From a virus, in the IMG/VR virus record IMGVR_UViG_3300034170_000089, positions 1 to 64,000 of that record: a stretch of 64,000 bases of DNA. One strand, given 5' to 3'. Of this stretch, positions 1,323 to 60,017 are shown piece after piece. Position 1 is the stretch's first letter; each line of letters begins with the position of its first letter. The notes under the pieces were generated by a model. It searched no databases. It saw nothing but the letters and a program-made list of their open reading frames with translations, and was not told the origin of the DNA. Position numbers and translations under genes: made by a program.

Positions 1323-1344
1323 AACAACGAAGGAGGATAAAACC

Positions 1345-1761: not shown

Positions 1762-1779
1762 CACGCGGCCGGAGGCTCC

Positions 1780-3076: not shown

Positions 3077-3082
3077 GCGCCG

Positions 3083-3607: not shown

Positions 3608-3616
3608 GAGGACGCC

Positions 3617-5098: not shown

Positions 5099-5112
5099 TC
5101 CGGAGGAACCGA

Positions 5113-5547: not shown

Positions 5548-5550
5548 CCC

Positions 5551-6179: not shown

Positions 6180-6182
6180 TCG

Positions 6183-8682: not shown

Positions 8683-8683
8683 G

Positions 8684-10184: not shown

Positions 10185-10814
10185 ATGCGAACCTTTCTTG
10201 TCGTTGGAGTGGTGCTGCTGGTGTCCGGCTGCTCTGGGTCGTCGAGCGGAGAGCGCGGGGCGACCGGCCCGCAGGGTTCCACGGGGCCGGCTGGGCCTAC
10301 CGGACCGCAGGGCGCCGCGGGGGTGAGCGCGGACCAGGCCGTCTTCGCTGGATCCCGGCTGGTCCTGACCCAGAAGACCACGTGGACCGGCTCCGACGGA
10401 TCGCGCTACGTCTTGTCCGGGTCCACCATGTTTCATGACCAGGCGCTCGGGATCGACTGCAATCCGGACGTGGCCGCTGACGGGACGACGCGCTGTTTGC
10501 CGACCTACGTGATTCCGTACGTCTACCCGGGCGCCTTTGTTGATGACAAGTGCACTTCACTGTTCGCCGTGCCCTCCTACCCATGCGCGCTGGGACGGTA
10601 CGTATACGAGCAGTCCGGGGCCGCCTGCACCGCGTCGGGTGCGGGCAGCTCCAGGAGGTTTTTCCAGCTCGGCAGCGAACTCCCCGCGGGAACAACGATC
10701 TACACAGCCAGCGGAGGAGTCTGCTCCGAGACCTCCTGGGCCCCCTCTGGAAAGATCTACGGAGTCGGCGCGGAGGTTCCTCCCTCCACGTTCGTGCAGT
10801 TCACGGCTCAGTGA
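10185..10814 (+). CDS. lipoprotein with collagen-like repeats
   Basis: 209 residues with a lipoprotein signal: hydrophobic segment and VSGC with Cys16 as the lipidation site. Residues 23-46 are Gly-x-y collagen-like repeats (GATGPQGSTGPAGPTGPQG). The rest is a Cys-rich domain (VFAGSRLVLTQKTTWTGSDG and further pairs of Cys) that I associate from memory with surface proteins of myxobacteria. It should be exported and anchored in a membrane. It is not expected in a virion and probably acts in the lysogen (moron), for example on the cell surface. Its end overlaps the convergent gene by 14 bases. Confidence 0.7.
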   Translation: MRTFLVVGVVLLVSGCSGSSSGERGATGPQGSTGPAGPTGPQGAAGVSADQAVFAGSRLVLTQKTTWTGSDGSRYVLSGSTMFHDQALGIDCNPDVAADGTTRCLPTYVIPYVYPGAFVDDKCTSLFAVPSYPCALGRYVYEQSGAACTASGAGSSRRFFQLGSELPAGTTIYTASGGVCSETSWAPSGKIYGVGAEVPPSTFVQFTAQ

Positions 10815-11818: not shown

Positions 11819-12322
11819 ATGAGGGCGACGGTCCTGTCGGTGGTGGTGGCGGTGGTGGTGGCGGCAGCCGGCTGCCAGGAACTTCTCCCGGAGCCGCCCG
11901 TCGAACTGGAAGTAGACGGCGTCACTTTCGGACGAAGCGACGCCACCCCCCCGCTTCCGACGACCATCCTGGACCCCGACCGGCTGACGCTCGTGCTCCA
12001 ACGCTCCGCGGCGCTCTGGGGCGTGCCAGTATCCAACCTCGCTGGCTTGCGGGTCGGCCTTTCCTCGCAGCCGGTCTGCCCCGACGGTACGCGTGACCTA
12101 GCGTGTTACCAGGCCGGGGTAATCTGGCTGTGGAATCCGGAGCAGGCGCCATACGACGCGTGGCAGACCGCTGCCTCTGCTTGCCCAGAGCATGCGTTAC
12201 CGCACGAGATAGGGCACTTCCTGATCGGGGACCCGACGCACTCGGACCCTCGGTTTATCGACGCGGAGCATGTACTGGACGATCTTCCCAGGTGTGAGCC
12301 CGGGCCGATGTGCACTGGCTAG
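11819..12322 (+). CDS. putative lipoprotein metalloprotease
   Basis: 167 residues. Lipoprotein signal with AAGC and Cys19. Near the C terminus is HEIGHFLIGDPTH: His129, Glu130 and His133 form the HExxH zinc site, and His141 eight residues later could be a third ligand (a variant of the metzincin spacing). Two Cys pairs suggest periplasmic disulfides. It would be exported and membrane-anchored, so a lysogen-surface role is more likely than a virion role. The substrate is unknown. It ends by overlapping the convergent fibre gene. Confidence 0.65.
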   Translation: MRATVLSVVVAVVVAAAGCQELLPEPPVELEVDGVTFGRSDATPPLPTTILDPDRLTLVLQRSAALWGVPVSNLAGLRVGLSSQPVCPDGTRDLACYQAGVIWLWNPEQAPYDAWQTAASACPEHALPHEIGHFLIGDPTHSDPRFIDAEHVLDDLPRCEPGPMCTG

Positions 12323-13197
12323 AATTCCTTGGCTACTAGCTGCATGTTGATCACCTGGGCGCTCACCGTGCCGCCGGACGCCTGAAGCTGGACTGAATAC
12401 GAATAGGTCCCAGACGCCACAGGGTCAATGACCGTGATGCTAGCCTGGGAGTCACCGTTGAGCAAGTTGATGCCACCCACGACGGTCGTACCCCGCATCA
12501 CCACAGCAAACACTACCCCAGAGAAGCACTCCATATAGGCGTTCACGGCTCCAGCGAACGGCTGGAACAGCAACAGAACAGGGCGCCCAGTTGTGGTTAT
12601 ACTTACGGTAGAGTTCGTTACGGTCGAATTCCCGGCTGCGCTTACCAAGAACGTGCCGGAAGAACCGGAGATGACCGGGGTTCGGTCCACATACCCCTTG
12701 TTCGCTCCGTCGGTGGAGGCAGAAGGCGTCGCTACGTTGTTCAGCGCGTTCCCGTGGCAGTCGATCGCGCCGGTGCTCCCGATCGAAACGCGCTGGACAC
12801 TGTTGGTGTACAGGTCGAGACCGAACTGACCCGCCCCGGACGTGCGCTTGCTGCCGACGCCCTCGCCCGAAGTGGACACGCCGAACCGAAGCGATGAAGC
12901 GATCGTCCCGGTGTTCGCGCCGCTCGCATCGACGGTCGCCTGGCCTGCGACGGAGATGTCCGTCGACGAGGTGAGTCCAGCCGCGAACGTGTGCCGAGAG
13001 GTCCAGGTCAGCGTCTGGCCGAGGAGGCCATCGAGAACGACGCAGGCGTCGTAGATGACCTTGAACAGCCAGTTGAAGTATTGAGCGGGAGGCTTCTCCG
13101 AGGCGATCCACCCCGAGTCCTTCTTCGACTCCAGCGGCTCCGTGATGCCCGCTCCGCCTCCGGTGGCCCAGCGTGGCAGCTTTGCGAGAAGTCCCAT
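12319..13197 (-). CDS. tail fibre protein
   Basis: 292 residues. The N-terminal segment (residues 20-50, GW-ASEKPPAQYFNWLFKVIYD) is the typical baseplate-attachment motif of phage tail fibres. Then follow Ser/Thr/Gly-rich beta repeats and a short C-terminal beta domain (ITVIDPVASGTYSYSVQL). It is expected to bind a host surface receptor. It is the last gene of the leftward baseplate group. Confidence 0.75.
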   Translation of the reverse strand: MGLLAKLPRWATGGGAGITEPLESKKDSGWIASEKPPAQYFNWLFKVIYDACVVLDGLLGQTLTWTSRHTFAAGLTSSTDISVAGQATVDASGANTGTIASSLRFGVSTSGEGVGSKRTSGAGQFGLDLYTNSVQRVSIGSTGAIDCHGNALNNVATPSASTDGANKGYVDRTPVISGSSGTFLVSAAGNSTVTNSTVSITTTGRPVLLLFQPFAGAVNAYMECFSGVVFAVVMRGTTVVGGINLLNGDSQASITVIDPVASGTYSYSVQLQASGGTVSAQVINMQLVAKEF

Positions 13198-13206
13198 TGT
13201 GATCTC

Positions 13207-13785
13207 CTAGAGTGCGGTCGCGAAGAGGCCGCCCGTGGATGGATTGGTCGAGTCCCCGAACCCTGCTCCGTTCGGATCGCACGCGAAGGAGGTGGCGTCG
13301 GCGGTGGTGGGGCTCACGAACACGGCGCGGACGCCGGCCGGCTTCACCTTCTGCAGGATGCTGTTTGACTCGACCGGATCGATCGCGAAGGTGGAGGCGC
13401 CCATGGTGAGGGTGAACGCGGCGGGGAATTCCTCCGACAGCGTTACCGAAGAGGTGCCGTTCACGAGCGCGGTGAAGATGTCGATGATCTCCGGGATGGT
13501 GCCGCTCGACCGGTTGATCTTCACCCGCGTCTTGATCCAGAGACGGTAGGTGTCGTCGATGCGGCCCTCTCTGGGCTGGTTGACGATCCTGCCGTACTCG
13601 TCTAGCCGCTCCCCGTGGACGTTGTCGATCGTCTCGGAGAAGACGGCCCAGAAGGCATCCTCGAGATCCTGGTAGCGGCCAGCGCACAGGCCGATGAGGG
13701 CCTTGAGGTTGTCCGCGTCCCGGTACTGGCGGACCACGTTGGAGAGGGCGATCCCCTCGTGGTCCGTGATGTGGTCGAGGGCCAT
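13207..13785 (-). CDS. baseplate wedge protein, DUF2612-like (gpI-like)
   Basis: 192 residues. Helical N terminus, then LCAGRYQDLEDAFWAVF and a segment GERLDEYGRIVNQPREGRIDD-YR-WI-TRV-INRSSGTIPEII, the pattern of DUF2612-type baseplate proteins that act like P2 gpI. The Thr/Ser-rich C terminus links to the fibre. It follows the J-like gene by two bases, as in P2-like baseplates. Confidence 0.75.
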   Translation of the reverse strand: MALDHITDHEGIALSNVVRQYRDADNLKALIGLCAGRYQDLEDAFWAVFSETIDNVHGERLDEYGRIVNQPREGRIDDTYRLWIKTRVKINRSSGTIPEIIDIFTALVNGTSSVTLSEEFPAAFTLTMGASTFAIDPVESNSILQKVKPAGVRAVFVSPTTADATSFACDPNGAGFGDSTNPSTGGLFATAL

Positions 13786-13787
13786 GG

Positions 13788-15149
13788 TTACGGCGTGTCC
13801 GAGTAGTTGGTGGCGTTGACGACGATCCGAGAGGTGTCGAGGTTCGCCTGCTGGGTGGCGGTGATGCCGACCTTGGTCTCGGTCGTGGGGCTCGCGCTGG
13901 TGTCGATGTAGAGCGAGGGCACGTCCATCACGCCACTGACAGTGATGGCGCGCTTGATCCGGAAGCTCACCACGTCCACGCCTGCGCCCTGGTTCGCCTG
14001 GCCGAAGGCGACGATCGCGGCCTTGACCTGGGCATCCCCGTCGGCCGGGTAGGTGGTCGGATCCTTCTGGAGATTGACCACGACGTAGATCGAGACCTGC
14101 GACGGCCGGCTGAACTTCACGGTGTGCGACTTCCCCTGAGCGTCAACGGACGATCCGGTGGTGGTCCCGTAGGTCTCGATGCCGGCGGGCTTGGCGTCGA
14201 ACACTGCGTCGAGGACGCTCTGATCGGTGCCTCCGGAGACCAGCACCTCAATCGACTTGGCCGGCCGGCTGAATGCGTCCGTCGAGAGGGTCGTGTTCTC
14301 GAAGACGGTGCAGGCCGTCACCCCGGAGACCTGGAGCACGGCGGCCCGGACCGCGTCGGGAGCCGATAGGCCCTGGGACGCGAGCTCCGTCAGGCGGCGC
14401 AGGCGCAGGGCGACCGGCGTCTCTCGATCGGCCCCGGCAGCGGCGTCGGCCGCGTTCGAGCACCATGACCACCCGCCGACGGGCGTCTCGATGACGGTCA
14501 GGGTGCGCGCGGGCGCGACGAGGGGACCTGTGTCGACCGCCTCGGCCGCGACGTCCGCAGCCCCGGAGCCGGCACCGAGATAGACCCAGTGCGCCCCGCC
14601 GTCGGTGATGTCGGTCGCTGTCCCCGTGGGCCCGCCGGAGCTGGCCGAGGTTCCCGCGGTGATCGCCTCGTAGACGTTCCCGCCGTTCGTCGCCCGAGCG
14701 CCGACCGAGTAGGCGTGGCTGCTCGCCCAGGCCGAGACGGTCGTGATCGTCGCGTCGGCCTTCGTCGAGAACTTCACGCCCGTCCCGGAGACGCTCGCCT
14801 GAGATCCGGCCGGAACGACGGTGCCTGCGACGCCCCCGATCGTGAGGGCCGAGAGCTGGGACTTCGTCGCGGCCTTCGGGCCGACGGTCCCGGTGATAGC
14901 GCACAGGCTCGACTGCGCGGCCCCGGTCGCCTGGTCGGGGTCTCGCGCGGAGACCACTTCCTCGGCCATATCCCAGAGGTCAGACTCGCGGGCCGCCAGG
15001 ATGCCGATGATCTGGCCCTCCGGCGTGGAGGCGTCGAGGCTCACGCCCTCGCCGAAGACGCCGCGGAACGAGGTCTGGAGCTCGGAGAGGATGACGTCCA
15101 AGGTCTTCGGGACGAAACCACTGTCAGTCAATCCGTAGTCGATCGCCAT
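13788..15149 (-). CDS. baseplate wedge protein, J-like
   Basis: 453 residues from the ATG at 15149 (a GTG at 15155 overlapping the upstream stop is an alternative). The N-terminal LDVILSELQ--FR-VFG and the following LWDMAEEV-SARDPD-ATGAAQ-SL segment are typical of baseplate J family proteins, which form wedges around the hub. A carbohydrate-binding-like module (about residues 142-200, A-W-A-S-S-H-A-Y to HWVYLG) is inserted and resembles one in the sheath. The C terminus contains the usual I-V-FGQANQGAGVDVVSFRI-RAI element. Confidence 0.8.
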   Translation of the reverse strand: MAIDYGLTDSGFVPKTLDVILSELQTSFRGVFGEGVSLDASTPEGQIIGILAARESDLWDMAEEVVSARDPDQATGAAQSSLCAITGTVGPKAATKSQLSALTIGGVAGTVVPAGSQASVSGTGVKFSTKADATITTVSAWASSHAYSVGARATNGGNVYEAITAGTSASSGGPTGTATDITDGGAHWVYLGAGSGAADVAAEAVDTGPLVAPARTLTVIETPVGGWSWCSNAADAAAGADRETPVALRLRRLTELASQGLSAPDAVRAAVLQVSGVTACTVFENTTLSTDAFSRPAKSIEVLVSGGTDQSVLDAVFDAKPAGIETYGTTTGSSVDAQGKSHTVKFSRPSQVSIYVVVNLQKDPTTYPADGDAQVKAAIVAFGQANQGAGVDVVSFRIKRAITVSGVMDVPSLYIDTSASPTTETKVGITATQQANLDTSRIVVNATNYSDTP

Positions 15150-15151
15150 GG

Positions 15152-15523
15152 TCACCCGATCTGGACGGTCCCGGAGACGGTCCCGGTCGTGCCGTTCATC
15201 GACGCCTGCGCGTCATAGGAGGCGGAGAGAGTGCGCGCGGAGGGGTCGATCGAGACGGTCAGGCTCTTGAGCGCCATCACGCCCGGGGTCTGGAGGATTC
15301 GATCTCGGAGCACCTGCCGGATTACCGACTCGCTGCGCGGCTTGCCGAGGATCTTCTCGTAGAGCGGCAGGCCCTCAGCCGGATCGAGGAACCACTCTCC
15401 GGCGGCGAGCAGCATGCGGCTCTCCAGGAGCTGGCGAACCGCCTCGAGCGGATCCGTCACCCGCTGGAGCGCGCCTCCGCTCCACACGATGTCTCCGTCC
15501 TGGACCCGCAACCCGAACGCCAT
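15152..15523 (-). CDS. gp25-like sheath initiator protein
   Basis: 123 residues from ATG 15523; a GTG nine bases upstream (15532) is less likely. The pattern GDIVW-GGALQRVTDPLEAVRQLLESRMLLAAGEWFLDP-EGLPLYEKILG is characteristic of gp25-like proteins that seed sheath assembly at the baseplate. It stands first in the leftward baseplate group, and its start is preceded by the motif GATAGGTGGG (15528-15537 on the minus strand). Confidence 0.7.
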   Translation of the reverse strand: MAFGLRVQDGDIVWSGGALQRVTDPLEAVRQLLESRMLLAAGEWFLDPAEGLPLYEKILGKPRSESVIRQVLRDRILQTPGVMALKSLTVSIDPSARTLSASYDAQASMNGTTGTVSGTVQIG

Positions 15524-15527
15524 GGGT

Positions 15528-15537
15528 CCCACCTATC
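15528..15537 (-). promoter_or_regulatory. conserved GATAGGTGGG start-site motif
   Basis: GATAGGTGGG followed by four bases and ATGGCG on the minus strand, immediately before the gp25-like gene. The same 10-mer with the same four-base spacing precedes the amidase and the portal genes; a fourth copy is 14 bases from another start. The AGGTG part can act as ribosome site. The shared bases beyond it suggest a further signal. Confidence 0.5.
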
Positions 15538-15589: not shown

Positions 15590-15599
15590 GATAGGTGGG
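15590..15599 (+). promoter_or_regulatory. conserved GATAGGTGGG start-site motif
   Basis: GATAGGTGGG, four bases, ATGGCG directly before the amidase gene, facing the copy of the gp25-like gene across 52 bases. The shared sequence with other copies is longer than a ribosome site needs. Confidence 0.5.
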
Positions 15600-15603
15600 G
15601 CTC

Positions 15604-16137
15604 ATGGCGGCGCTCTCGATCATCCACGCGCGCAGTCCGAACCGCAGCAGCCGTCACGGCGCCGCGATCGACTGCGTCGTGCTGCACACCACCGAGGGCG
15701 CGGCGAACGGGGCCGTGGCCTGGCTCCAGGACCCGGCCAGCAAGGCCAGCGCGCACTACCTCATCGCCGCGGACGGGCGGATCTACCAGCTCGTCGACGA
15801 GTCCGAGGAGGCCTGGCACGCGGGCAACCCGGCGGTGAACCGGAGCTCGATCGGCATCGAGCTCGAGGGGAAGGCGTCCGAAGAGGCCACGTTCACGGCG
15901 CCGATGATGAGCTCCCTGCTCGGGATGCTGCGCTACCTGCTCGGCCGGTACCACATCCCCGCCGATCGGCAGCACGTGTTCGGCCACTGCGACGTGCCGG
16001 ACCCTGACCACCCGGGCCAGCTCGGCGGCCACCGCCACCACACCGATCCGGGCGCGTTCTTCCCCTGGAATCAGCTCTTTTCCGCCCTCAACCCCGCGCC
16101 GGCCGGGACCCCCGCCGGGAAGGAGACCCCAGCATGA
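15604..16137 (+). CDS. N-acetylmuramoyl-L-alanine amidase endolysin
   Basis: 177 residues from ATG 15604. Amidase_2-type fold: VVLHTT with His28 as first zinc ligand, an AHYLI-ADGRIYQLVDE segment (about residues 50-70), WHAG, and a C-terminal GHCDVP---HPGQLGGHRHHTDPG region carrying the remaining ligands. It cleaves the amide bond between MurNAc and the stem peptide. No signal sequence is visible, so it needs a holin. It begins the rightward lysis and envelope module. Confidence 0.85.
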   Translation: MAALSIIHARSPNRSSRHGAAIDCVVLHTTEGAANGAVAWLQDPASKASAHYLIAADGRIYQLVDESEEAWHAGNPAVNRSSIGIELEGKASEEATFTAPMMSSLLGMLRYLLGRYHIPADRQHVFGHCDVPDPDHPGQLGGHRHHTDPGAFFPWNQLFSALNPAPAGTPAGKETPA

Positions 16138-16700
16138 AACGTTCCGTTAAGTGGTTCGGCCTCTTGGCCTTCGTCGCCATCATCGCCCTGCCCGTTCTCG
16201 CGCTCGCGCAGGTGCCCGATCCGTCCGACTCGTCCGCGTTCCTCTCCGCGCTGCTCGGCGCGTTCAAGTCGGGCGACAAGGGCGTGCTCGCCGCGCTCGC
16301 CATCGCCGGCGTGATCTACGTCTTGCGCAAGTTCAGCTCGAAGATCCCGGGCCTGGGCGCGTTCTTCGCGACCTCCCTGGGCGGTGCCACCTTCGCCGGC
16401 ATCGTCGTCCTCCTGGGCGGCCTTGCCGCGGCGCTCTACTCGCACCAGACCATCACCGGCGCGTACCTCTGGGCTCTCCTCCTCGCGACCTGGACCGCGG
16501 CCGGCGCCTGGACCTGGGTCCGGCGCATGCTCGCGCTGCTCAGCAGGATCCCGACGGTCGGTGGGCTCTTCGGCCTGATCCTCTCCATCCTCGGCGGCGA
16601 CCCCGACTCGCAGGTACAGGCCGCGGCCGACGCGGCGAAGACCAGCGTCCCTCCGACCACGCCCGGCGCCGACGTTGCCGCCGGTCTCGATCCGAAGTAG
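16134..16700 (+). CDS. membrane protein, candidate holin
   Basis: 188 residues. An N-terminal signal-like helix (residues 8-26) is followed by three hydrophobic segments (about 45-60, 70-100 and 108-128) and a soluble, Ala/Pro-rich C terminus. Directly follows the amidase (ATGA overlap), where a holin is expected. The number of membrane segments fits several holin classes, but no family motif is visible. Confidence 0.5.
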   Translation: MKRSVKWFGLLAFVAIIALPVLALAQVPDPSDSSAFLSALLGAFKSGDKGVLAALAIAGVIYVLRKFSSKIPGLGAFFATSLGGATFAGIVVLLGGLAAALYSHQTITGAYLWALLLATWTAAGAWTWVRRMLALLSRIPTVGGLFGLILSILGGDPDSQVQAAADAAKTSVPPTTPGADVAAGLDPK

Positions 16701-16706
16701 GCCACC

Positions 16707-17162
16707 ATGCGCGCCACCCTGATTCTCGTTCTGGCTGGGCTGGGAGCGGTAGCAGCTCCCGGGGTCGGCGTCTGTGATCCGCTCCCGGCCCCGCCGCCAA
16801 ACGAATTGCACATCGTCGTCGCCCCGGGTTCGCCGATCACCACCGCGGCGGGCCCGGTCATCACGGCCAAGGCCGACGAGCTCAACTCGTCCTTCGGGGG
16901 CATCTACACGCCCCCCGCGCTCGCGCGCTGGGATCTCGAGCGGCTCAAGCGCCTGGAGGCGGAGCGCGATGCGGCCCTGAAGGTGGCCTATGACCGTCCG
17001 CCCCCGGGGCTCAAGCCGCTTGCGGTCGGGCTCGGGATCGGCGTCGCCGTGGGCGGAACGGCCGCGGCGTGGTCGGTCGACGGAAAGCCGGGCGTCAAAG
17101 CCATCGCTTCGATCGGCTCGGCCGCGCTCGGGTCGCTCATCCTCTGGCTGGCCAGCCGATAG
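16707..17162 (+). CDS. exported membrane protein in the lysis cluster
   Basis: 151 residues. Signal peptide up to about residue 23, a polar Pro/Ala-rich middle with a short charged helix (RLKRLEAERDAALKVA) and two hydrophobic segments at the end (about 103-120 and 130-148). It lies between the holin candidate and secreted proteins. It could be part of envelope disruption, but there is no decisive motif. Confidence 0.55.
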   Translation: MRATLILVLAGLGAVAAPGVGVCDPLPAPPPNELHIVVAPGSPITTAAGPVITAKADELNSSFGGIYTPPALARWDLERLKRLEAERDAALKVAYDRPPPGLKPLAVGLGIGVAVGGTAAAWSVDGKPGVKAIASIGSAALGSLILWLASR

Positions 17163-17170
17163 GAGTCACC

Positions 17171-17629
17171 ATGCGTAAAGCAGCGCTTCTCTTCGTCGCC
17201 CTCTCGCTGGTCGCATCTCGGGCGTCCGCCGCGCCGGACTGGTTCCAGAAGCGCGACTGGTCCGAGGCGCAAGCGCTCACCCGCGCCACGCCGACCACCG
17301 ACGGGACGATCGGGCTCGACCTCTCCAGCTCGATCGCCTTCATGGTCGTGCTCGACGCTCCGACCGGCCAGACGCTCTCGGGCGGCGGGGAGGTCGACCT
17401 CTACTACTACGACGCCACGCTGGCGGCCTGGTACCCGGGCCCGGCCACCGGGAACTGGACGTCGCTATCTGAGTGCGCGGGGAAGGCCCGATGCGTCCAC
17501 GGGACCTACGACGTCACGATGCCGCGGGGGAAGGTGATCGCCGTGACCAACGGTGTGACGGTCAGTTCCGGCACCCAGGTCACCATGCGGATCCTCTCCA
17601 CCACCTCCGGCCAGTCCATCTCCTACTGA
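17171..17629 (+). CDS. secreted hypothetical protein
   Basis: 152 residues from ATG 17171, chosen because a clean signal peptide (MRKAALLFVALSLVASRASA) starts there and TAGGAG lies upstream. The mature part is beta-rich, with YYYDATLAAWYPGP and a Cys pair (about residues 103-108). I recognise no domain. It has Sec-export character like its neighbours, so it is expected outside the cytoplasm. Confidence 0.6.
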   Translation: MRKAALLFVALSLVASRASAAPDWFQKRDWSEAQALTRATPTTDGTIGLDLSSSIAFMVVLDAPTGQTLSGGGEVDLYYYDATLAAWYPGPATGNWTSLSECAGKARCVHGTYDVTMPRGKVIAVTNGVTVSSGTQVTMRILSTTSGQSISY

Positions 17630-17636
17630 GGTGCGC

Positions 17637-18698
17637 ATGCGATCGGCTCTCGTTCTGCTGGCTCTTCTCCCCGCGCTGGCCCTCGGCCAGGCGGTTCCGC
17701 ATGGATCGTCGACGGGATCCTCCGGCGGGTGTCTCGATGGAGCTGCGGGCGCTGTTGGTCCGATCGGCCCCACTGGAGCAACGGGTCCGGCTGGCGCCAC
17801 CGGCGCCACGGGACAGACCGGGCCCGCGGGATCGGGCATCAACTCCGTCACCTCGATCCCGGCCACGCCGTCGTCCGGGGATGTGCCGTTCGTATATCAC
17901 CAGGGGTCAACCACTCCGGGCTGGATCGGCAACATCGGGACGCTCGGGGTGGCCACGTACCAGCTACCTTTCGTCGGCGCGGGTCGGCCGATCTTCGGGT
18001 GCGTGACTCCAGCCGGGTTCGGCACGAGCACACTCACCAACTTCGGATCGGCCGGGACCAGTTCAGTAACGGGTACCGCAGCCGGAGTATCGTTCGACCT
18101 ATCCTCCGCTCTGGGGCGCTCGCTCAAGGTTCAGTACGACAGCGCGTCGTCCAGTACCGGTCCGACTCCGGCCTCTGCCGGCGTCCGCGCGAACGCGCAT
18201 GTCACCTGGCGCGGGAACGGCAGCGGCACCGGCGGCTGGGACTGGTGGGGCGCGTGCGGAGCCCTGACCACGGTCAGCGGCCAGCGATTCTTCTGCGGCC
18301 TCAAGGAAGGTACCAGCGCGATCTCGACCACGGCCGAGCCCTCAGCGCAGATCCACACCGCCTACGTAGGGTGCGACTCGACGCAGACCACGCTGAGGGC
18401 GTGCAGCAACGACGCCAGCGCATCGGCCGCATGCACCGACCTCGGGGCCAACTTTCCGTGCGGAGGGGCCTACTACAACGTCCGGATCTGGGCCAAGCCC
18501 AGCGACACCAGCATTGGCTACCAGGTTGACCGCGTTGACTCGGCATTCACCGCGAGCGGCACGTTCGCCACCCAGCTCCCGCGGGCTACCGGATCGCTCG
18601 GCCTTTCCTATGACGTGACCGTCAACACCGGGCCCACTGCGACCAATGCGGTGAGTTCGGCCTATTTCGGCGGCCAATGCCTGGTGGCCAACCCGTGA
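17637..18698 (+). CDS. secreted collagen-like protein
   Basis: 353 residues from ATG 17637. Signal peptide MRSALVLLALLPALALG, then about 30 residues of Gly-x-y collagen-like repeats (residues 41-70), then a long Gly/Ser/Thr-rich beta domain with several Cys and Trp. Collagen-like triple helices occur in phage fibres and in surface proteins. The signal peptide argues for export. It could be a fibre assembled outside the cell or a surface factor. Confidence 0.65.
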   Translation: MRSALVLLALLPALALGQAVPHGSSTGSSGGCLDGAAGAVGPIGPTGATGPAGATGATGQTGPAGSGINSVTSIPATPSSGDVPFVYHQGSTTPGWIGNIGTLGVATYQLPFVGAGRPIFGCVTPAGFGTSTLTNFGSAGTSSVTGTAAGVSFDLSSALGRSLKVQYDSASSSTGPTPASAGVRANAHVTWRGNGSGTGGWDWWGACGALTTVSGQRFFCGLKEGTSAISTTAEPSAQIHTAYVGCDSTQTTLRACSNDASASAACTDLGANFPCGGAYYNVRIWAKPSDTSIGYQVDRVDSAFTASGTFATQLPRATGSLGLSYDVTVNTGPTATNAVSSAYFGGQCLVANP

Positions 18699-18706
18699 GA
18701 TCGGCC

Positions 18707-20098
18707 ATGCGCCGTCTTCTGCTGTGCGTCGCCGTCCTCGCCCCGCTCGCCGCGTTGGCGGACTACGTCTGCCGCGCCAAGCCGGCGGCGACCACGAAGC
18801 TGATTGTGTCGATCACCCACGACGACACCGATGACAACCAGTACACGACCGCGGCCCCAATCCTAGAAGCGCACGGGATGCGCGCCACGTTCTACGTCAA
18901 CATTGGCCGGCTGATGCCCGAGACTGCGAACCAGGGTTACATGGTTCTGTCGCAGGTCCTGGATCTGGAGAGTCGCGGGTTCGATTTGGGGATCCACGGT
19001 CTGGACCACCAGAGCGACCTGATCACGCTGATCCCGCTCGACAAGATGAAGCGCGAACTCTGCGACTCGCGGACGGAGGCGCTAATGATGGGTATGCACC
19101 CAAAGTCATTCGCGTATCCAAACGGCCTATACGACGACTACACCCGAAGCCTGGCCTACTCCTGCGGCTACAACACGGCCCGTTCCGTAGGGGCTACCGA
19201 GATCACGGCGTCTGGCCCCTACTACGAGACCATCCCGCCACTGGACACGTACGCGATCAGGGCGCCGAGTTCGTTCGAGGCCCCCGCATCCACGCTCTCT
19301 GTGCTCCAGGGTTACGTAACCCGAGCCGAGGCCGCGGCAGTGAGCGCAGGCAAGGTCGGCTGGCTCGTTATGAATTTTCACAACGTGTGCGCTGACTATA
19401 CGTTGTGCCCCGGCGGGCAGATCAACCACACGATCGATGCCGCGACGTACACGGCATTCCTCGACTGGCTCCAGCCGCGCGCGGCCTCGGGGACGATCGT
19501 GAAGACCGTCTCGGAGACGTTCGGAGGCGCGCTCAAGGCGGGCGTATCGAGCGGAACTCCGCCCCTGATCCTCGGCGACATGGAGTCCTATCTGGGTGGC
19601 GCGACCAGCGCCCCCGACTGCTGGCTCCGATACCAGAGCGGCACCAGCACTGGGACCTGGAGCAGGGTGACGGGCCTTTCCGGCATCGGCTACGCGCAAC
19701 AGGTGGTGATGTCGGCATGGAACTCGGGAGCAGCCTGGGTGCTGCGGCAGAACGACAGTTCAAGCGACTACCGGTCATGCACAACCCAGGTCACTCCCGG
19801 CCGGAGCTACACGCTCTCCTGCTCGTACAAGTCGGACGTGCCGGTACGTCTGCACCTCTACCACCGCGACGCGACCACGGGGGCCTGGCTGACGCTCTCC
19901 ACAACCGCGACGTCGCCGGCAGCGCCCACTTCTCCGTCCACCATCAGCTACACCCTGACCGCGCCCGGTTCCGGGTTCGTAGACCGGACCCTGTCGTTCG
20001 GCCTCGAGATCACCAGCGTCTGTGCGACTGGGTGCCTCAACGGCAACAGCACCGGGACCATGATCGTCGACGACTGCACGGTCGTGGACAACGGATGA
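18707..20098 (+). CDS. secreted polysaccharide deacetylase (NodB type)
   Basis: 463 residues from ATG 18707 with signal peptide (cleavage near residue 18). NodB homology domain: motif 1 THDD at 37-40, motif 2 His97-x3-His101, motif 3 F-A-Y-P-N-G at 135-140, and N-F-H225 late motif, all consistent with a metal-dependent carbohydrate esterase. The C-terminal 180 residues look like one beta-sandwich carbohydrate-binding domain (LGDMESYLGG to DDCTVVDNG). It removes acetyl groups from N-acetylated sugars in an envelope or extracellular polysaccharide. Neighbours are similarly exported. It may help cross or modify host surface polymer. Confidence 0.8.
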   Translation: MRRLLLCVAVLAPLAALADYVCRAKPAATTKLIVSITHDDTDDNQYTTAAPILEAHGMRATFYVNIGRLMPETANQGYMVLSQVLDLESRGFDLGIHGLDHQSDLITLIPLDKMKRELCDSRTEALMMGMHPKSFAYPNGLYDDYTRSLAYSCGYNTARSVGATEITASGPYYETIPPLDTYAIRAPSSFEAPASTLSVLQGYVTRAEAAAVSAGKVGWLVMNFHNVCADYTLCPGGQINHTIDAATYTAFLDWLQPRAASGTIVKTVSETFGGALKAGVSSGTPPLILGDMESYLGGATSAPDCWLRYQSGTSTGTWSRVTGLSGIGYAQQVVMSAWNSGAAWVLRQNDSSSDYRSCTTQVTPGRSYTLSCSYKSDVPVRLHLYHRDATTGAWLTLSTTATSPAAPTSPSTISYTLTAPGSGFVDRTLSFGLEITSVCATGCLNGNSTGTMIVDDCTVVDNG

Positions 20099-20105
20099 GG
20101 TGACT

Positions 20106-22799
20106 ATGCGTAGAATACTCCTCGCCCTTCTTCTTGCTGCTCCGGTCGCCCGCGCCGCGGTCCCGACCGTCCGGATCACCGGCAACCAGCTCCTCCCGGA
20201 CGGCTCGGCGCCGGCGGGGGGGACCATCACCTGCTCGCTGTCCCAGCCCGGGAGTGTGCCGGACGGGGTGATCGGTTCCTCTCAACGGGTGGCGGCCGAG
20301 GCGACCTTCACCCTGGCCAACGGCGGCGCGCTCCCGAGCACGGCCGCCCTCGTGCCCAACGACGCGATCACCCCTGGCCCGAACCTTACGACCTACGCCT
20401 GCGCGTTCCGCCTCCAGCTCCTGAACGGGCGCCAGGCCACGCCGTGGACCGAACGGTGGAGCATCTCGAGCTCGCCCAGCACCATCTCGATCGGCGCGAT
20501 CACTCGCGTGGCGCAACCAGGTACGGCGGTGTTCGTCGCGGGACCGAAGGGCGATTCGGGCGTCGTTCCGCCGGTCACCACCTCCGATTACTTCGACCCG
20601 GCCGCGGCAGTCGCGGCCATGCGGGTGACGAGCGGCACCTACTCCGGCGGCTATCTGGTGGCACCGAACGGTTATCTGAACGTGTACTTTGCGGCGCTCG
20701 GCCTCCGGAGCTTCGTCACGGATCAGCCAGCCCAGGTCCAGGCGTTCCTCGACTTGGTCCTCGACAACCTGGTGAAGGTCAACGACGGGAGCCGCGGCCA
20801 GTACACGATCTATGACGTGGATGGGATGCAGACGACGCCCGTTCTGCGCGACCCGGACAGCAACGACAGCTACGCCGCAGTCGTGAACCTGCTCGCCTAC
20901 GAGTACGCGAAGACGAACGGCAGTTGGGCGTGGTACTCGGGCCGCGCCGCGTTGCTGAAAAACATCGCCTACTACAACATTGCGACGGCGCGAAAGACCA
21001 CCGCCAACGCCCCAGGGTTCGGCATGGCCCGGACCTTCCAGACGTCGGCGTGGGGCTCCTACTACAACGTCTGCCTGACCGAGGACAATGCGGAGGTCTA
21101 CGCAGGGCTCGACGCGCTTTCCAAGGGCCTCGCGCAGATCGGCGACACGGACAGTTCGTACTACGCGGCCACTAGGGACGGCGTCGCGGCCGGGATGCAC
21201 AACGCGACGTGGGGCACCTGGGACGATACCAATCGTCAATGGCTCATCAGCGACGCGCGCGCGCCGCTCGGGACCGCGTTTTACCCGGACGCGGTCACTC
21301 AAATCTTCGCGGAGACCTACGGCGTCCCCTCGGGCAATGCCGCGACCGATCGGCAGCGATACGACTGGGCGTGGTCGAAGCTCAACGCGCTGGCGCCGGG
21401 ATGGTATCAGCACGCCAGCAACGACTTTCCGTGGTTGCAGCTCGGGTACGTGGCCGCACTGCGGGGAGCGTCGGACATGGCGGTTGGTCAACTGGCCCTG
21501 GCCCGGAATGCGTTCACCGCGGCCAAGCGGTCGATCCACGAGTGCGGCTGGTACCGCGGAATCGAGCGCATCTTGGCGGCCCGGGATGTATCGATCGCTG
21601 GGGCTCGGTCTGCGGTGGCCCTCAACGGCACCACCTCGACGCCCCTCGTCGCGACCCCTGCGGCGGCCAACGACCCCAACGCCTACGGCATGTCCGTCAC
21701 CACCTCCACCGCCTCGGTGGGCGGGAGCACCGCGGGCGGCACGGACCGCGCCTTGTCTGCCTGGAACGCATTCGCCTTCGCGCCGTCCTCATCCACGACG
21801 GGTGGAGTGTCGATCCGACTGAAAAAGGGCGCTTCAGTGGCGGACGGAGGCTCCGTCTCGGCCTACATCTACAGCGACAACGCAGGGGTGCCCGGGTCCG
21901 ACATCTCCATGATCAACACCGGACTCCCGAGCACGACCGGGCTGCCGACGATCATCGGCACGTCGGAGATCGGGGCCTCCTACGCCAACCTCCCATTCAG
22001 AATCCCCAAGGTAGGTCTAACCGTGAACGGTATCTACTGGATCGTTCTCAAGACCTCGGGGATCTCGGGGGGCTCGCTCTACATCGACTCGGCGGCGGCT
22101 GGCGGGAATTTCGCGGCCAGCGCCCCCGACTCCGGCGGCGCGCCCGGCGCATGGACCACGTCCGCCTTCACCGGATCCATGTCGGTGAGCGGCTCGACGG
22201 GCCGCGGCGTCTACTCCTACTCCCCGGACGGACACTCGGTGGAGGCTTTCTCGGACACCGGCATCCCGATCTATGGCCGCGTCCAATACGGCGGGATCGC
22301 GGTGAAGGGCGACGCAGTAGGCAGCGGGATCGGCGTCGGAGGAACCTCCTACAACGGCATCGGGTCGCGCGGATCGTCGAACCTGGGACTTGCCGGACAG
22401 TTCATCTCGCTGGGCAACTATGGCGCGCAAATCCAGGGCACCGGCGGCGCGCAGCTTGTCGCCACGAGCGCCGGAGCGCCGGCCATGCAGGGCGTGAACA
22501 CGGCCGGCGGCAACCTCTGGCAGGGGCTCGACTCGACCGCCAGCTACGCCAACACGTCGCAGATCGACAGCCACGGAAATACCTACCTGGCGGGCTCCTG
22601 GCTGGGGGCGGCGACCACGCTCGGGACGTGCGGCACGACGGACCCAGTCCACACCCTCCGGTTCGTGACGGGATCCGGGTCTACTCCAAGCAAGATCTGT
22701 TACTGCTCGTTTACTCCGACCGGCTCCGTATACGCCTGGGTCTCGCTCACGAAGAATAGCGCCGGCACCGGCATCGGCACCACCACCACCTGCCCCTGA
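20106..22799 (+). CDS. secreted glycosidase-like and fibre-like chimera
   Basis: 897 residues from ATG 20106, with GAGGTGA in the leader. Signal peptide ends near residue 18. Residues about 18-130 form a beta domain; 150-505 resemble an (alpha/alpha)6 glycoside hydrolase (YLNVYFA, then VDGMQTTPVLRDPDSNDSYAAVVNLLAYEY, then an A-E/D-x-A-E-VYAGLDALSKGL helix); about 530-700 is a jelly-roll-like beta domain; and 700-860 is a Gly/Ser repeat fibre. An exported fibre-enzyme is uncommon. It could depolymerise a surface polysaccharide. The catalytic family cannot be fixed by eye. Confidence 0.65.
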   Translation: MRRILLALLLAAPVARAAVPTVRITGNQLLPDGSAPAGGTITCSLSQPGSVPDGVIGSSQRVAAEATFTLANGGALPSTAALVPNDAITPGPNLTTYACAFRLQLLNGRQATPWTERWSISSSPSTISIGAITRVAQPGTAVFVAGPKGDSGVVPPVTTSDYFDPAAAVAAMRVTSGTYSGGYLVAPNGYLNVYFAALGLRSFVTDQPAQVQAFLDLVLDNLVKVNDGSRGQYTIYDVDGMQTTPVLRDPDSNDSYAAVVNLLAYEYAKTNGSWAWYSGRAALLKNIAYYNIATARKTTANAPGFGMARTFQTSAWGSYYNVCLTEDNAEVYAGLDALSKGLAQIGDTDSSYYAATRDGVAAGMHNATWGTWDDTNRQWLISDARAPLGTAFYPDAVTQIFAETYGVPSGNAATDRQRYDWAWSKLNALAPGWYQHASNDFPWLQLGYVAALRGASDMAVGQLALARNAFTAAKRSIHECGWYRGIERILAARDVSIAGARSAVALNGTTSTPLVATPAAANDPNAYGMSVTTSTASVGGSTAGGTDRALSAWNAFAFAPSSSTTGGVSIRLKKGASVADGGSVSAYIYSDNAGVPGSDISMINTGLPSTTGLPTIIGTSEIGASYANLPFRIPKVGLTVNGIYWIVLKTSGISGGSLYIDSAAAGGNFAASAPDSGGAPGAWTTSAFTGSMSVSGSTGRGVYSYSPDGHSVEAFSDTGIPIYGRVQYGGIAVKGDAVGSGIGVGGTSYNGIGSRGSSNLGLAGQFISLGNYGAQIQGTGGAQLVATSAGAPAMQGVNTAGGNLWQGLDSTASYANTSQIDSHGNTYLAGSWLGAATTLGTCGTTDPVHTLRFVTGSGSTPSKICYCSFTPTGSVYAWVSLTKNSAGTGIGTTTTCP

Positions 22800-22808
22800 G
22801 GAGCGACC

Positions 22809-23201
22809 ATGAGTGACCCTCTTCCCAGCGTGACGGTGGTAATCAATGGACAGCCGCCGGACGTGGCGGACGTCCTCGGCGACGTGACGCGCCTGCTGGT
22901 CGAGAACCTGAACGGCCAGGCCCTGGGCATGCTCCAGGCCGCGATCACCGACCAGGTCATGCCGGCAATCAAGAGCCAGCTCGGCGCGGCGGTCGCCACC
23001 GTGATCGCCGATTTCCAGGCCAACGGGTGGCCCGAGGTCGACCGCCGGGGCCAGCTCACCGGCAAGAAGACCACCCTCTCGGCGATCGTCACCACCTGGC
23101 TCCTGCGCACGTTCGGCGGGCCGGACGCGCTCGACCCGTACCCGTCCCCGGACAGCGCGGCCGTGGAGCCCGCACCCTCAACGACAGGAGCCGCAACGTG
23201 A
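22809..23201 (+). CDS. hypothetical protein
   Basis: 130 residues, ATG preceded by GAGGAGCG. Helical middle with amphipathic pattern (DVLGDVTRLLVENLNGQALGM-QAAITDQVMPAIKSQLG) and a Pro-rich end. No domain recognised. It sits between fibre and lysis-type genes in the rightward operon. Confidence 0.65.
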   Translation: MSDPLPSVTVVINGQPPDVADVLGDVTRLLVENLNGQALGMLQAAITDQVMPAIKSQLGAAVATVIADFQANGWPEVDRRGQLTGKKTTLSAIVTTWLLRTFGGPDALDPYPSPDSAAVEPAPSTTGAAT

Positions 23202-23587
23202 CCGCCAAGAAGCACCTCGGCCTCACCTGGATGGAGTGGTTCATGCTGGGGATCGCCGCGGTGGCGCTGACCGCGGAGATCGTCGCCTTCGTGCAGGACC
23301 CGTCGCTCACGATCTCGGACACCATCCGGCGGGACTCGCGGCGCTGGCTCTGGGAGGCGTACCTCTTCGGTCTGCTGCCCGGTCACTTCTTCGCGCCGGC
23401 CATCAACTGGCGCCGCTTCGGCTGGCAGGACCGGCCCTGGATCTTCCCCGTCCTCTGGATCCTCACGGCCGCTGCAGTGGTCGCGCGGGATGTGTTCGTG
23501 GGCGGACAGGTTAGCCAATGGTGGACGCTCTGGGTAGCGCTCGGCGCGTTCGCCGAGGGCGCGATCCTGTGGAACCAGGGAGACTGA
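23198..23587 (+). CDS. small membrane protein, holin-like candidate
   Basis: 129 residues, GTG start overlapping the previous TGA; GACAGGAG precedes it. Hydrophobic segments lie at about residues 14-33, 57-71, 85-98 and 107-123, with charged loops. It is followed by an o-spanin-like lipoprotein, so it is a second candidate holin or antiholin. Confidence 0.5.
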   Translation: MTAKKHLGLTWMEWFMLGIAAVALTAEIVAFVQDPSLTISDTIRRDSRRWLWEAYLFGLLPGHFFAPAINWRRFGWQDRPWIFPVLWILTAAAVVARDVFVGGQVSQWWTLWVALGAFAEGAILWNQGD

Positions 23588-23589
23588 CG

Positions 23590-23865
23590 GTGCGACGGGC
23601 GACCATCCTCGCGGCGCTGGGGCTCGTCTCCTGCCTGCATCGCGAGGCAGGCCCGATCGTGGTCAACACGGTCACGTTCTGCCAGGCCGCACGCCGCCGC
23701 CTACCGCCACCTCCCGATGAACCGGAGATCGCCTGGATGTCGGTGGAGTGCCCGAGCAGGTTCGGCGCCTGCCTCTCCGGAGCAGATGCCAAGAGCATGC
23801 TCGACTACATGAGGGCAGTGAACAAATGGAAACGGGCGGTCGCCCTAGCCGAGGTCCAACGATGA
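23590..23865 (+). CDS. o-spanin-like lipoprotein (Rz1 type)
   Basis: 91 residues from GTG 23590. Short hydrophobic leader and lipobox LVSC with Cys15, then a Pro-rich stretch (RRRLPPPPDEPE) and a C-terminal helix. Small lipoproteins of this shape next to a one-membrane coiled-coil gene are o-spanins, which with the i-spanin fuse outer and inner membranes at the end of lysis. Its stop overlaps the next ATG. Confidence 0.55.
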   Translation: MRRATILAALGLVSCLHREAGPIVVNTVTFCQAARRRLPPPPDEPEIAWMSVECPSRFGACLSGADAKSMLDYMRAVNKWKRAVALAEVQR

Positions 23866-24248
23866 CTCCTCCGAGGCAAGAGCCCGAGTCCCTCGCCGGC
23901 AAGGCGCTCGAAGCGCTCTCCGGCGGGAAGCGTCGGTCGGACAGTGCATGGGCGCTCGGCAAGACGATCGCCCTGCTCGGGGCGACGATGTCCACGCTCG
24001 GCACGGTGATCTACCTGATCCTGCGCGTCCTGGCCGGTCAGATGGAGGCGAACAACCGGCTCGTGGAGAAGATCGCCGACCAGTGGAGCCGTGACCAGCA
24101 GGCGAACCGAGAAGCGCAGGAGCGGCTCGGGACGCGGCTCGACGCGATGACCCTGGAGTTCCAGGGTCTGTCGGCGACGCTCCGGGCTGTGGCGTACATC
24201 TCGCGCGGCGCGGACGCGCCCCAGCGTCAAGGGAGGCATACGCCATGA
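23862..24248 (+). CDS. i-spanin-like membrane coiled-coil protein
   Basis: 128 residues, ATGA overlap with the lipoprotein gene. One membrane segment (about residues 31-56) followed by a coiled coil with heptad-like Leu/Ile spacing (about 57-112, NRLVEKIADQWSRDQQ and following). This is the expected topology of an i-spanin or similar inner-membrane lysis protein. Paired with the preceding lipoprotein it makes a plausible spanin complex. Confidence 0.5.
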   Translation: MTPPRQEPESLAGKALEALSGGKRRSDSAWALGKTIALLGATMSTLGTVIYLILRVLAGQMEANNRLVEKIADQWSRDQQANREAQERLGTRLDAMTLEFQGLSATLRAVAYISRGADAPQRQGRHTP

Positions 24249-25111
24249 TCGCAGCCCTGGCGGCTCTCGTTCTCTCGGCGACGGACCTGTGGGGCGTGCA
24301 GGAGATCCGGCCTACGATCGCGGGCGGTCGGGAGTGGTTCCTCCCCGAGACGGCGGACGCGCCCGATGCTACCTGGCGGCCCGAGAGCGCCGCGGTCCTG
24401 CGGATACCTGGGGGCTGGCACACGTGCGGCGCGACGACGAACGGGGAGACCCGGCTCAACGTGACCTCTCCGGCTGGCGCCGCATGGTGGCGCAACGTGG
24501 AGGCGACGGCGTACGCTCGACGATTCGCCCTGGAGCCGGCCAGCACCCAGCGACCCCACGTCGAGCTGGTGGTTCGGGGCGAGCGGCACTCGGCGATCCC
24601 CTTCGCGCCCAGCGCCTACAACCTCGGCGTGCCAGCTCCAGCCGGTACCGTCACGCCGCCGGGATGGCCCTGGGCCACCGAGGCGACCGTCAACCCGCAC
24701 TGCGCGGGAACCGGGTATCACGCGAATTTCTACGATGGCCAGGTGCTGTTCGAAAAGGAGCTCTCGCACTCCGAAGGCTACGGCTCCCAGCGCGGCTCCG
24801 TGAGCGTCCCAGGGCTCTCGCTCGACAACTGGAACGGTTTCAAGGCGCTCGCCTACAACTCACTCGACGGGGCTGCGGTCCACCTCGAGGCGTGGGTCGA
24901 CCTCGGCGCCACGGGGACATGGACCAAGGTCGCCAGCGTCACCGACACCACCGGATGGCCCGCGACCACGCTGGAGGGCTGCGACGCGGCGCCGTACGGT
25001 TACTCCAGGTCGATGCCGATCACGTGGGCTGGCCCGTGGGTGCTCTTCCGCGCGGACGCGATGGCGCTGGATTTCCGGTGGCTCTCGGTCCGAGAGATCG
25101 CGCCGAGGTAG
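24245..25111 (+). CDS. secreted hypothetical protein, jelly-roll-like
   Basis: 288 residues, ATGA overlap with the previous gene. A short hydrophobic N-terminus (MIAALAALVLSA) looks like a signal peptide. Mature part is beta-rich with Trp and aromatic clusters (CAGTGYHANFYDGQVLFEKELSHSEGYGSQRG, residue blocks 155-187), suggestive of a carbohydrate-binding or lyase-like jelly roll, but no catalytic motif is evident. Last gene of the rightward late region; its stop is one base from the convergent early operon's stop. Confidence 0.6.
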   Translation: MIAALAALVLSATDLWGVQEIRPTIAGGREWFLPETADAPDATWRPESAAVLRIPGGWHTCGATTNGETRLNVTSPAGAAWWRNVEATAYARRFALEPASTQRPHVELVVRGERHSAIPFAPSAYNLGVPAPAGTVTPPGWPWATEATVNPHCAGTGYHANFYDGQVLFEKELSHSEGYGSQRGSVSVPGLSLDNWNGFKALAYNSLDGAAVHLEAWVDLGATGTWTKVASVTDTTGWPATTLEGCDAAPYGYSRSMPITWAGPWVLFRADAMALDFRWLSVREIAPR

Positions 25112-29114: not shown

Positions 29115-30644
29115 TCAGCCAACCACGAGGGCGATGGGAATCTGTGGACTGGCACTCGTCCCGATCCTCGGTCTCCCGCTGAGCTTCAGCAGGCCCCCGG
29201 CGGTCGCGATGCGGCCCGTGGGGTGGATCCGGATCCAGGTGCCATCCTGGCGCGGCCAGACGGCCTCGACGAGCTGGCGCCACTCCTCCCAGCTCGCCTT
29301 GGCCAGTCGGCGGCGGATGGCCTCGACGGCGGCGCGCGAGTCCTGCGCCTGGTCCCGGAGCCGCTCGGCTGACTCGATCGACCCAAGCAGGGCGCCGCGG
29401 CGCTCCTCGGCGGCAGCTCGGAGCCGGCCGATCTCCGCGGACTGCCGGCGCCACATCTCGTCCCTGACCTCCCCCTGGGACCGCATCCGGACCAGGTTCT
29501 CCTCCCGGCGGTCGAGCCGCTCCAGCTCCCGGCGGACCACCTCGAGATCGGCGCGCGCCTGGCCGGTGTCGCTCGGGGCGGCGTCGCGCAGGAGCCGCTC
29601 GGGGTCCCGGACCGCGGCGCGGAGGGCGGCGAGGAACGCGGCGTCGAGCTCGTCGACCCGGTGGTGACGGCCGGCGGCGCAGGCGGCGGGGACCCCGTGG
29701 CGCGACTTCGCCTTGGCGCAGCGGTAGTAGAGTCCGACCGACTTGGTCCCGCCGACCACCACATGCATGGTCGAGCCGCAGACGGCGCAGACGGCGATCC
29801 GGCGCAGAAGGGCGCGATGCTTGGCCGGCGGCCCGGATCGGCTCCTCCCCCGGGTCATAGCGGCGACGGCGCGGCGCTGGGTCACGTCGTCGACCACGGG
29901 CGGGCAGTCGATCGGGTGTCCGTAGGAGGTGATCCGGCCGATGGCGGCGGGCTTGCGGATCATCTGGCGCAGGCTGGACGCTTCCCAGGGGCCACCCTTG
30001 GGCGCCGTGAGCCCCTCGGCGTTGAGTTCGGCGGCGAGCCGATGCAGGGAGGTCCCGCCGATCACCTCGGCGAAGATTCGGCGGTAGACCTTCAACTCCA
30101 CCGGGTCGGTGCGCCACTCCCTGGCGGCATGGTCGTAGCGCCGGGCGTAGGGGATCGTGGTCATTGGTCGCCCCTCGGCGGAGAGGCGCTTGCGCGCCGT
30201 CACCGTCCGCTCGACGATCTTGCGACGCTCTCGGGCGCTGGCCCAGGTCTGGAGGAAGTAGTCGACCTCCCCGATCTCGGTGGCCGGGTCGACGACGTGG
30301 CCGCCCGCGTCGACGATGACCGCGTGCGCGTCGGCGACCATGCCATAGATCGCGAACCGCTCCCGGGGGTCGTCGTGACGGGTGAGTCGGTCCAGGTGGC
30401 GCACCCGGAGCTCGTCGAAGGCGCGCTCACGGGAGAGGGCGGCGAGGCGCTGGAGGTCGGGGCGCTGCGCCAGGTCGGCGGCGCCCGAGAGGCCGGTGGC
30501 GCCGTGGTCGATGCGCTCGACAATCCGGCCGGGCCTGGTCTTGGCGAGCCGGTCGAGGGCGCGGCGCTGGTCCTCGGGCGTGTCGCGCTCGGCCTGGCCG
30601 GCGGAGGACACGCGGATCAGCTCGACAAACCTCGGAATCGGCAT
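29115..30644 (-). CDS. int: large serine recombinase (phage integrase)
   Basis: 509 residues from ATG 30644. N-terminal resolvase-type catalytic domain with RVSS (nucleophile most likely Ser13), AG-AERDTPEDQR and later RDD-ERFAI, then a recombinase domain (about residues 155-260, with VYRRIFAEVIGG-SLHRLAAELNAEG and LRQMIRKPAAIGR), a zinc-ribbon domain with CAVCG and a later Cys pair (about 290-330), and a coiled coil. This unites attP with host attB without host factors. It proves a temperate lifestyle in principle. It is flanked by phage genes on both sides, so the phage is unintegrated in this sequence. Confidence 0.85.
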   Translation of the reverse strand: MPIPRFVELIRVSSAGQAERDTPEDQRRALDRLAKTRPGRIVERIDHGATGLSGAADLAQRPDLQRLAALSRERAFDELRVRHLDRLTRHDDPRERFAIYGMVADAHAVIVDAGGHVVDPATEIGEVDYFLQTWASARERRKIVERTVTARKRLSAEGRPMTTIPYARRYDHAAREWRTDPVELKVYRRIFAEVIGGTSLHRLAAELNAEGLTAPKGGPWEASSLRQMIRKPAAIGRITSYGHPIDCPPVVDDVTQRRAVAAMTRGRSRSGPPAKHRALLRRIAVCAVCGSTMHVVVGGTKSVGLYYRCAKAKSRHGVPAACAAGRHHRVDELDAAFLAALRAAVRDPERLLRDAAPSDTGQARADLEVVRRELERLDRREENLVRMRSQGEVRDEMWRRQSAEIGRLRAAAEERRGALLGSIESAERLRDQAQDSRAAVEAIRRRLAKASWEEWRQLVEAVWPRQDGTWIRIHPTGRIATAGGLLKLSGRPRIGTSASPQIPIALVVG

Positions 30645-30670
30645 GGACTGGGGCCCTCGGGGTCCGCAGT

Positions 30671-60011: not shown

Positions 60012-60017
60012 CCCCGT

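Follow-up and report, generated by a model that had tools for sequence, protein, structure and literature searches.

A lysis-associated cassette of fibre-type and carbohydrate-active proteins with predicted signal peptides in a contractile-tailed phage

Introduction

The cytoplasm is generally regarded as the place where the virion components of tailed phages are produced and put together. Export of a phage protein through the Sec pathway before lysis has been described for endolysins such as Lys44 of phage fOg44 and the SAR endolysins (PMC6116005), and among described principles these come closest to the locus analyzed here. The locus is a run of late genes between 16134 and 22799 in the IMG/VR virus record IMGVR_UViG_3300034170_000089 (65,093 bases, G+C content about 68%). 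The analysis covered positions 1 to 64,000 of that record, a stretch referred to below as the window; its genes are named by their first coordinate. As in the case of Lys44 and the SAR endolysins, the proteins of this locus would be routed through Sec before lysis. However, the amidase of the window has no signal, and the proteins predicted to be exported are fibre-type or polysaccharide-active proteins and not peptidoglycan hydrolases.

Other known proteins resemble parts of the locus. Tailspike and tail-fibre depolymerases of the Pect-lyase and SASA types combine catalytic folds with fibre-type domains, which are also found in relatives of the window phage, but those checked here lack signal peptides and are encoded in tail blocks. 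CE4 deacetylases are encoded near lysis or tail genes in Gordonia phage Orchid (gp35), Arthrobacter phage Qui (gp10) and the TM7 phage DolZOral124, as is the deacetylase 18707 of the window, but none of these three has a signal peptide. A candidate exported phage deacetylase is gp36 of Arthrobacter phage Gorpy (L119:2296-3657), where a twin-arginine-like N-terminus (RRGLLRLG) was noticed by eye. The parts of the module described below are of known kinds, and searches of open-licence papers found no description of a recurring cassette of signal-peptide fibres and spikes.

Results and Discussion

Late genes encoding proteins with predicted signal peptides

The core of the locus consists of four genes, separated by 7 to 8 bases and located between lysis-type genes. 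Signal-peptide scores are given in parentheses.

17171-17629, + strand: conserved companion of 152 residues with a signal peptide (10.4) and a conserved cysteine pair (C102, C108)
17637-18698, + strand: signal peptide (8.1), short collagen-like stretch and C-terminal tail-fibre head domain; nine cysteines
18707-20098, + strand: signal peptide (6.9), CE4/NodB polysaccharide deacetylase domain and C-terminal region
20106-22799, + strand: signal peptide (11.9), N-terminal domain, helical domain and fibre-type C-terminal domain with four cysteines

Signal peptides were predicted with a home-made program, applied at the start codon, that evaluates a charged n-region, a hydrophobic h-region and a cleavage matrix trained on 22 Escherichia coli signal peptides. 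The 99th percentile of shuffled N-termini was 6.7. Six consecutive genes (16134, 16707, 17171, 17637, 18707 and 20106, spanning 16134-22799) scored 6.9 to 11.9, with h-region hydropathies of 3.0 to 3.5. All 18 virion genes of the window (303-10134 and 12319-15532) scored below 0 and none had a signal peptide; the initial annotation had stated that phage virion proteins normally have none. When the same thresholds were applied to phages Mx8, Mu and P2, four of 165 annotated genes were picked, namely P2 lysA, lysB and lysC, and Mx8 p66. The initial annotation had also counted at least seven signal-peptide products. Six of them held up, with the n-, h- and c-regions of a Sec signal at the start codon, but the seventh, 24245, has a hydrophobic run only (MIAALAALVLSA), without a positive n-region, and failed the predictor. 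The N-termini are nearly fixed because upstream stops or the lack of other starts constrain the start codons: no alternative start codon occurs within the first 40 codons of 17171, 17637 and 20106, and an upstream extension of 17637 and 20106 is possible by two codons only.

The 17171 protein aligns with the product of L046:8131-8583, from a related contig, at 46% over its full length, signal peptide included. A scan of viral contigs with this alignment yielded no relative beyond that contig, which was already in the comparison, and scans with 18707, 20106, 17637 and the helical-domain alignment yielded none. The collagen-like stretch attributed to 17637 is real, with 11 G-X-Y triplets at residues 35-67, but it is short and scores 15.1 bits against Pfam Collagen, under the cut-off of 27.2. 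Residues 184-323 match RcCWillis_17 and residues 213-322 match P26059A_6, proteins of a Rhodobacter and a Curvibacter phage, respectively, that share the C-terminal domain and have no signal peptide. The whole protein matches tail-fibre PHROGs; from these matches and the type of sequence we take its C-terminal domain to be a fibre head.

The NodB-type deacetylase was confirmed. The 18707 protein scores 57.1 bits against PF01522 (cut-off 23.1; 2.3e-15) and aligns with PDB entry 6dq3 (8e-6). The CE4 catalytic aspartate and the Asp-His-His metal site are present (D39-D40 in THDD, H97 and H101 in HGLDH), as are the later CE4 motifs FAYPNG and NFHN, and the protein is a predicted CE4 (NodB) deacetylase. 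Its C-terminal region has a weak similarity to CBM_4_9 (0.09). Identification as the holdfast deacetylase HfsH was rejected, with a score of 30.7 bits against the NF050820 equivalog, whose cut-off is 400.

The 20106 protein had been read as a chimera of an (alpha/alpha)6-like glycosidase and a fibre. As for the fibre part, the C-terminus is homologous to that of G001_248 (8.9e-14), from the related phage G001, and can be aligned with Mx8 p66. The helical domain (about residues 163-492) has a homologue in Cupriavidus P-10 (35%, 7e-39) that looks like a bacterial lipoprotein and is apparently exported; a survey of 200 genomes from the order to which an Undibacterium belongs gave one weak match. 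As for the (alpha/alpha)6 glycosidase, no Pfam, NCBIfam or PDB sequence match was found, and what speaks for it is this homologue together with the helical secondary structure of an AlphaFold model (pLDDT 32). A fibre-type receptor-binding domain is present in 17637 and, in 20106, only through the C-terminus that it has in common with other signal-peptide proteins. No virion-anchoring domain was recognized after the signal peptide of either protein. G001_248 is itself a 248-residue fibre-like protein with a signal peptide, its gene lies outside the lysis block, among genes for head-tail connectors (L002:7930-8676), and its C-terminus is common to 20106 and Mx8 p66.

The same slot carries other bodies in related phages

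The sheaths of the IMG/VR phages G001 and G005 are 61% identical to that of the window phage. In these phages and in contig L046 the equivalent slot encodes signal-peptide proteins with bodies unlike those of the window: a Pect-lyase_RHGA protein (9e-19) and a 358-residue protein in G001, and beta-helix-like proteins, with weak beta-helix matches, in G005 and L046. Further-off relatives have a SASA acetylesterase (2.6e-7; L071) and a fibre-like protein (L053), also with signal peptides. Among 28 loci anchored on baseplate J, which partly overlap or nearly duplicate one another and in which genes were called mechanically, signal peptides were matched in 17 of 213 genes downstream of J versus 3 of 249 upstream.

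In L046, the homologue of 17171 directly precedes the gene of a signal-peptide beta-helix protein, L046_595. Over its first 87 bases, 17637 shows DNA homology with the beginning of the L046_595 gene, with a z of 8.8 against codon shuffles; the comparison value for full-length homologues of G005 and L046 was 5.1. Since 17637 and L046_595 share signal-peptide DNA and have different bodies, the conserved N-terminal module is the signal peptide. Judged from these sequences, the signal peptide is a shared N-terminal module with swapped bodies, as virion-anchoring N-termini are in ordinary fibres. The mature signal-peptide proteins contain 1.43 cysteines per 100 residues and the virion proteins of these phages 0.57 (Fisher p 5.5e-8), both sets of proteins having been picked by the analyst.

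Myxococcus phages Mx8 and Mx9 have a comparable arrangement

Myxococcus phages Mx4, Mx8 and Mx9 have homologues of the window terminase and of a few non-structural genes (27-46% identity), and for this reason a myxobacterium is the likely host. A profile search of genome contigs with the window sheath found no close prophage. In Mx8 (p64, p66, p67, p71, p72) and Mx9 (p14, p15, p19, p20), as in the window, signal-peptide proteins adjoin holin-like, coiled-coil and endolysin genes. The signal-peptide proteins are fibre and esterase proteins, and the C-terminus of p66 can be aligned with that of 20106. Unlike the window phage, Mx8 and Mx9 have short-tailed virions, no deacetylase was found in them, and most of these genes are annotated as hypothetical. 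The open-licence Mx8 and Mx9 genome papers contain no discussion of signal peptides.

Mx8 p64, which matches tail-fibre PHROGs (4e-5), and Mx9 p14 are identical in the DNA of their first 28 codons. Both start with MRYLPSAAGLAVGVLLGVIISVSTPASATRN, followed by an ordinary tail-fibre N-terminal domain that begins at residue 3-4 in proteins of Stenotrophomonas phage BUCT555 and Bradyrhizobium phage ppBjS10J-1. The signal-peptide score of p64 and p14 is 6.0, slightly below the threshold, so the call also rests on this alignment. In Mx8 p66 a signal peptide is combined with a four-cysteine C-terminus that is 41% identical to that of G001_248 over 68 residues (4e-10). Mx8 p67 and Mx9 p15 are GDSL/lipase-like proteins of the esterase type, and the adjoining Mx8 p72 is an NlpC/P60 endolysin.

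Export, release at lysis and the alternatives

The explanation that we favor, with moderate confidence, is that the fibre-type and carbohydrate-active proteins are made late, exported through Sec, released at lysis, and act on surface or matrix polysaccharide. The predicted export is well supported because the sequence signals are accompanied by recurrence in related phages and in Mx8 and Mx9; release and function we infer from the neighboring genes and the enzyme classes. Genes 17171, 17637, 18707 and 20106 would form part of a late operon, set within the lysis cassette, whose products are Sec preproteins. After cleavage by signal peptidase the proteins would fold in the periplasm, possibly with disulphides, and wait there until endolysin, holin and spanins open the cell. 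Once freed, they could bind and modify or cut polysaccharide on the surface or in the matrix of the host and neighboring cells, and the progeny would thereby be helped to leave debris and slime and to reach new cells.

The envelope- or matrix-modifying role proposed in the initial annotation fits the predicted enzyme types. Its picture of an exported system rather than tail fibres survives as to export, which is supported by sequence and by recurrence in relatives and in Mx8 and Mx9, but the contrast is overdrawn: fibre-type domains occur in 17637, 20106 and their relatives, and Mx8 p64 joins a signal peptide to an ordinary fibre N-terminus. Nor do the seven products make up one system, as 16134 and 16707 are better explained as lysis proteins.

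Several observations weigh against export and release at lysis. All signal-peptide calls come from the home-made predictor. Cysteine counts are odd in several of the signal-peptide proteins, so the disulphides are only putative. The AlphaFold model of 20106 has a uselessly low confidence, and that of the beta-helix pair has a pLDDT of 35. Many of the 28 J-anchored loci have no signal-peptide match downstream of J, and the late genes of Mx4, whose terminase is 40% identical, encode no signal peptides; the trait is therefore not universal.

Exported tail fibres could instead fold in the periplasm and join tails during or after lysis. A cut of Mx8 p64 and Mx9 p14 near the junction of STPASA and TRN would place the start of the protein where the ordinary fibres of ppBjS10J-1 and BUCT555 start, no start codon occurs in p64 between codon 1 and codon 44, and 17637 bears a fibre head domain. 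However, besides their signal-peptide proteins the window phage, G001 and G005 each encode an ordinary fibre that lacks such a peptide, which weakens this explanation there, and Mx8 p54 likewise has fibre-like matches. Moreover, the signal peptides of 17637 and L046_595 are followed by a short linker-like sequence and no known anchoring domain. Tailed phages are not known to assemble fibres elsewhere than in the cytoplasm. It seems unlikely that some of them make fibres or spikes as Sec preproteins and add them to the virion extracytoplasmically, during lysis or later; if they do, some of the particle takes shape in the periplasm or extracellularly.

Less likely is that the module is lysogenic-conversion cargo, made in lysogens and altering the host surface, for example by blocking superinfection or changing adhesion. 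The enzyme types suit surface polysaccharide, one gene of the window (29115-30698) resembles, by eye, that of a large serine recombinase, and Mx8 and Mx9 are temperate (PMC10720576). Nevertheless, the module genes belong to the late strand, are flanked by the endolysin and the spanin-like genes and are separated by short gaps. A search of the block for sigma-70-like promoters found none, although the promoters of the host may differ from this consensus. Also less likely, and in our opinion improbable, are uncleaved hydrophobic N-termini that serve virion assembly or membrane docking: cleavage is backed by predictions only and 24245 fails the signal-peptide test, but a charged n-region, a hydrophobic core and small residues ahead of the cleavage site are found again and again on unrelated bodies, in phages whose virions are of different types.

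The repeated occurrence, among lysis genes, of a cassette that combines signal-peptide fibres with polysaccharide enzymes would imply a secreted enzyme set that prepares the surroundings at lysis, as we favor, or extracytoplasmic fibre assembly. The question is directly testable, since Mx8 and Mx9, which are grown on laboratory strains of Myxococcus xanthus, have the trait. In annotation, such genes could wrongly be taken for those of secreted host proteins or of ordinary fibres.

Lysis-cassette genes and lipoprotein-type genes

The module is surrounded by the following genes. The last two are located outside the interval covered by the initial annotation, which overlooked the lipobox-type N-termini of 10185, 11819 and 23575.

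15604-16137, + strand: endolysin of the Amidase_2 type that opens the late + strand block; no signal peptide
16134-16700, + strand: holin-like lysis protein with a signal peptide (11.2) and hydrophobic segments
16707-17162, + strand: lysis-cassette protein with a signal peptide (8.6), coiled-coil stretch and C-terminal transmembrane segment, spanin-like by topology
22809-23201, + strand: 130-residue protein inside the block, no signal peptide
23195-23587, + strand: small membrane protein with several hydrophobic segments in its translation
23575-23865, + strand: putative outer-membrane lipoprotein spanin, lipobox LVSC, proline-rich
23862-24248, + strand: transmembrane and coiled-coil protein of inner-spanin or holin type, with a homologue at L029:13717-14109
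24245-25111, + strand: 288-residue protein with a hydrophobic N-terminus, negative in the signal-peptide test; signal peptide doubtful
10185-10814, + strand: second collagen-like protein, lipoprotein-type signal (VSGC), near tail genes
11819-12322, + strand: putative lipoprotein (AAGC), with a weak homologue on the - strand of L046

The 15604 amidase matches PF01510 (8.9e-32) and endolysin PHROGs; its open reading frame opens at GTG 15595, and ATG 15604 fits the Shine-Dalgarno-like GATAGGTGGGG. The architecture of 16134 recurs at the equivalent position, after the fibre gene, in L047, L053, L059 and L075, with no significant homology to those proteins by BLAST. The 16707 protein matches the product of L075:13404-13802 (35.8% over 53 residues, 3e-4), and its architecture is resembled by Mx8 p71 and Mx9 p19. 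These features make a role in lysis the most likely one for 16134 and 16707. The 23575 product is 50% identical over 46 residues to that of L029:13563-13700, which is also lipoprotein-like. Mx8 p68 has an architecture like that of 23862 and weakly matches Rz-like spanin PHROGs. Spanin-like genes adjoin the module in both the window and G001, where 23575 and 23862 have homologues. Profile searches gave no family match for 24245, and 10185 matches collagen-like tail fibre PHROGs.

Virion genes and other features of the window

By its gene content the window phage is a contractile-tailed phage, with these structural genes:

58476-61591: terminase and portal
at 3617: sheath
at 6183: tape measure
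12319-13197, - strand: ordinary tail fibre with a baseplate-type N-terminus and no signal peptide, the contrast case to the module
at 13207, - strand: gpI-like baseplate gene
13788-15155, - strand: baseplate J

The 12319 fibre matches the tail fibre PHROG 2126 (1.4e-9) and has homologues in L029 and L030. The block of gpW-like, J, gpI-like and fibre genes (12319-15532) lies on the - strand in the window, whereas G001 and G005 carry it on the + strand, after a homologue of 9511-10134; from this gene order, the block is inverted in the window relative to those phages. A 20-nucleotide inverted repeat (90%; 15518-15537 and 15590-15609) covers the ribosome-binding sites and starts of the divergent gpW-like and amidase genes and is possibly a trace of that inversion. 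The sheath (4010-4180) and baseplate J (14577-14750) have in common an inserted domain, some 57 residues long and 61% identical between the two; it has a carbohydrate-binding look, and many related phages have it in structural proteins as well. An isolated gene of the right-hand block (47217-47687) encodes a protein with a strong predicted signal peptide (MKTLFLLIVMMSVPAPVSA).

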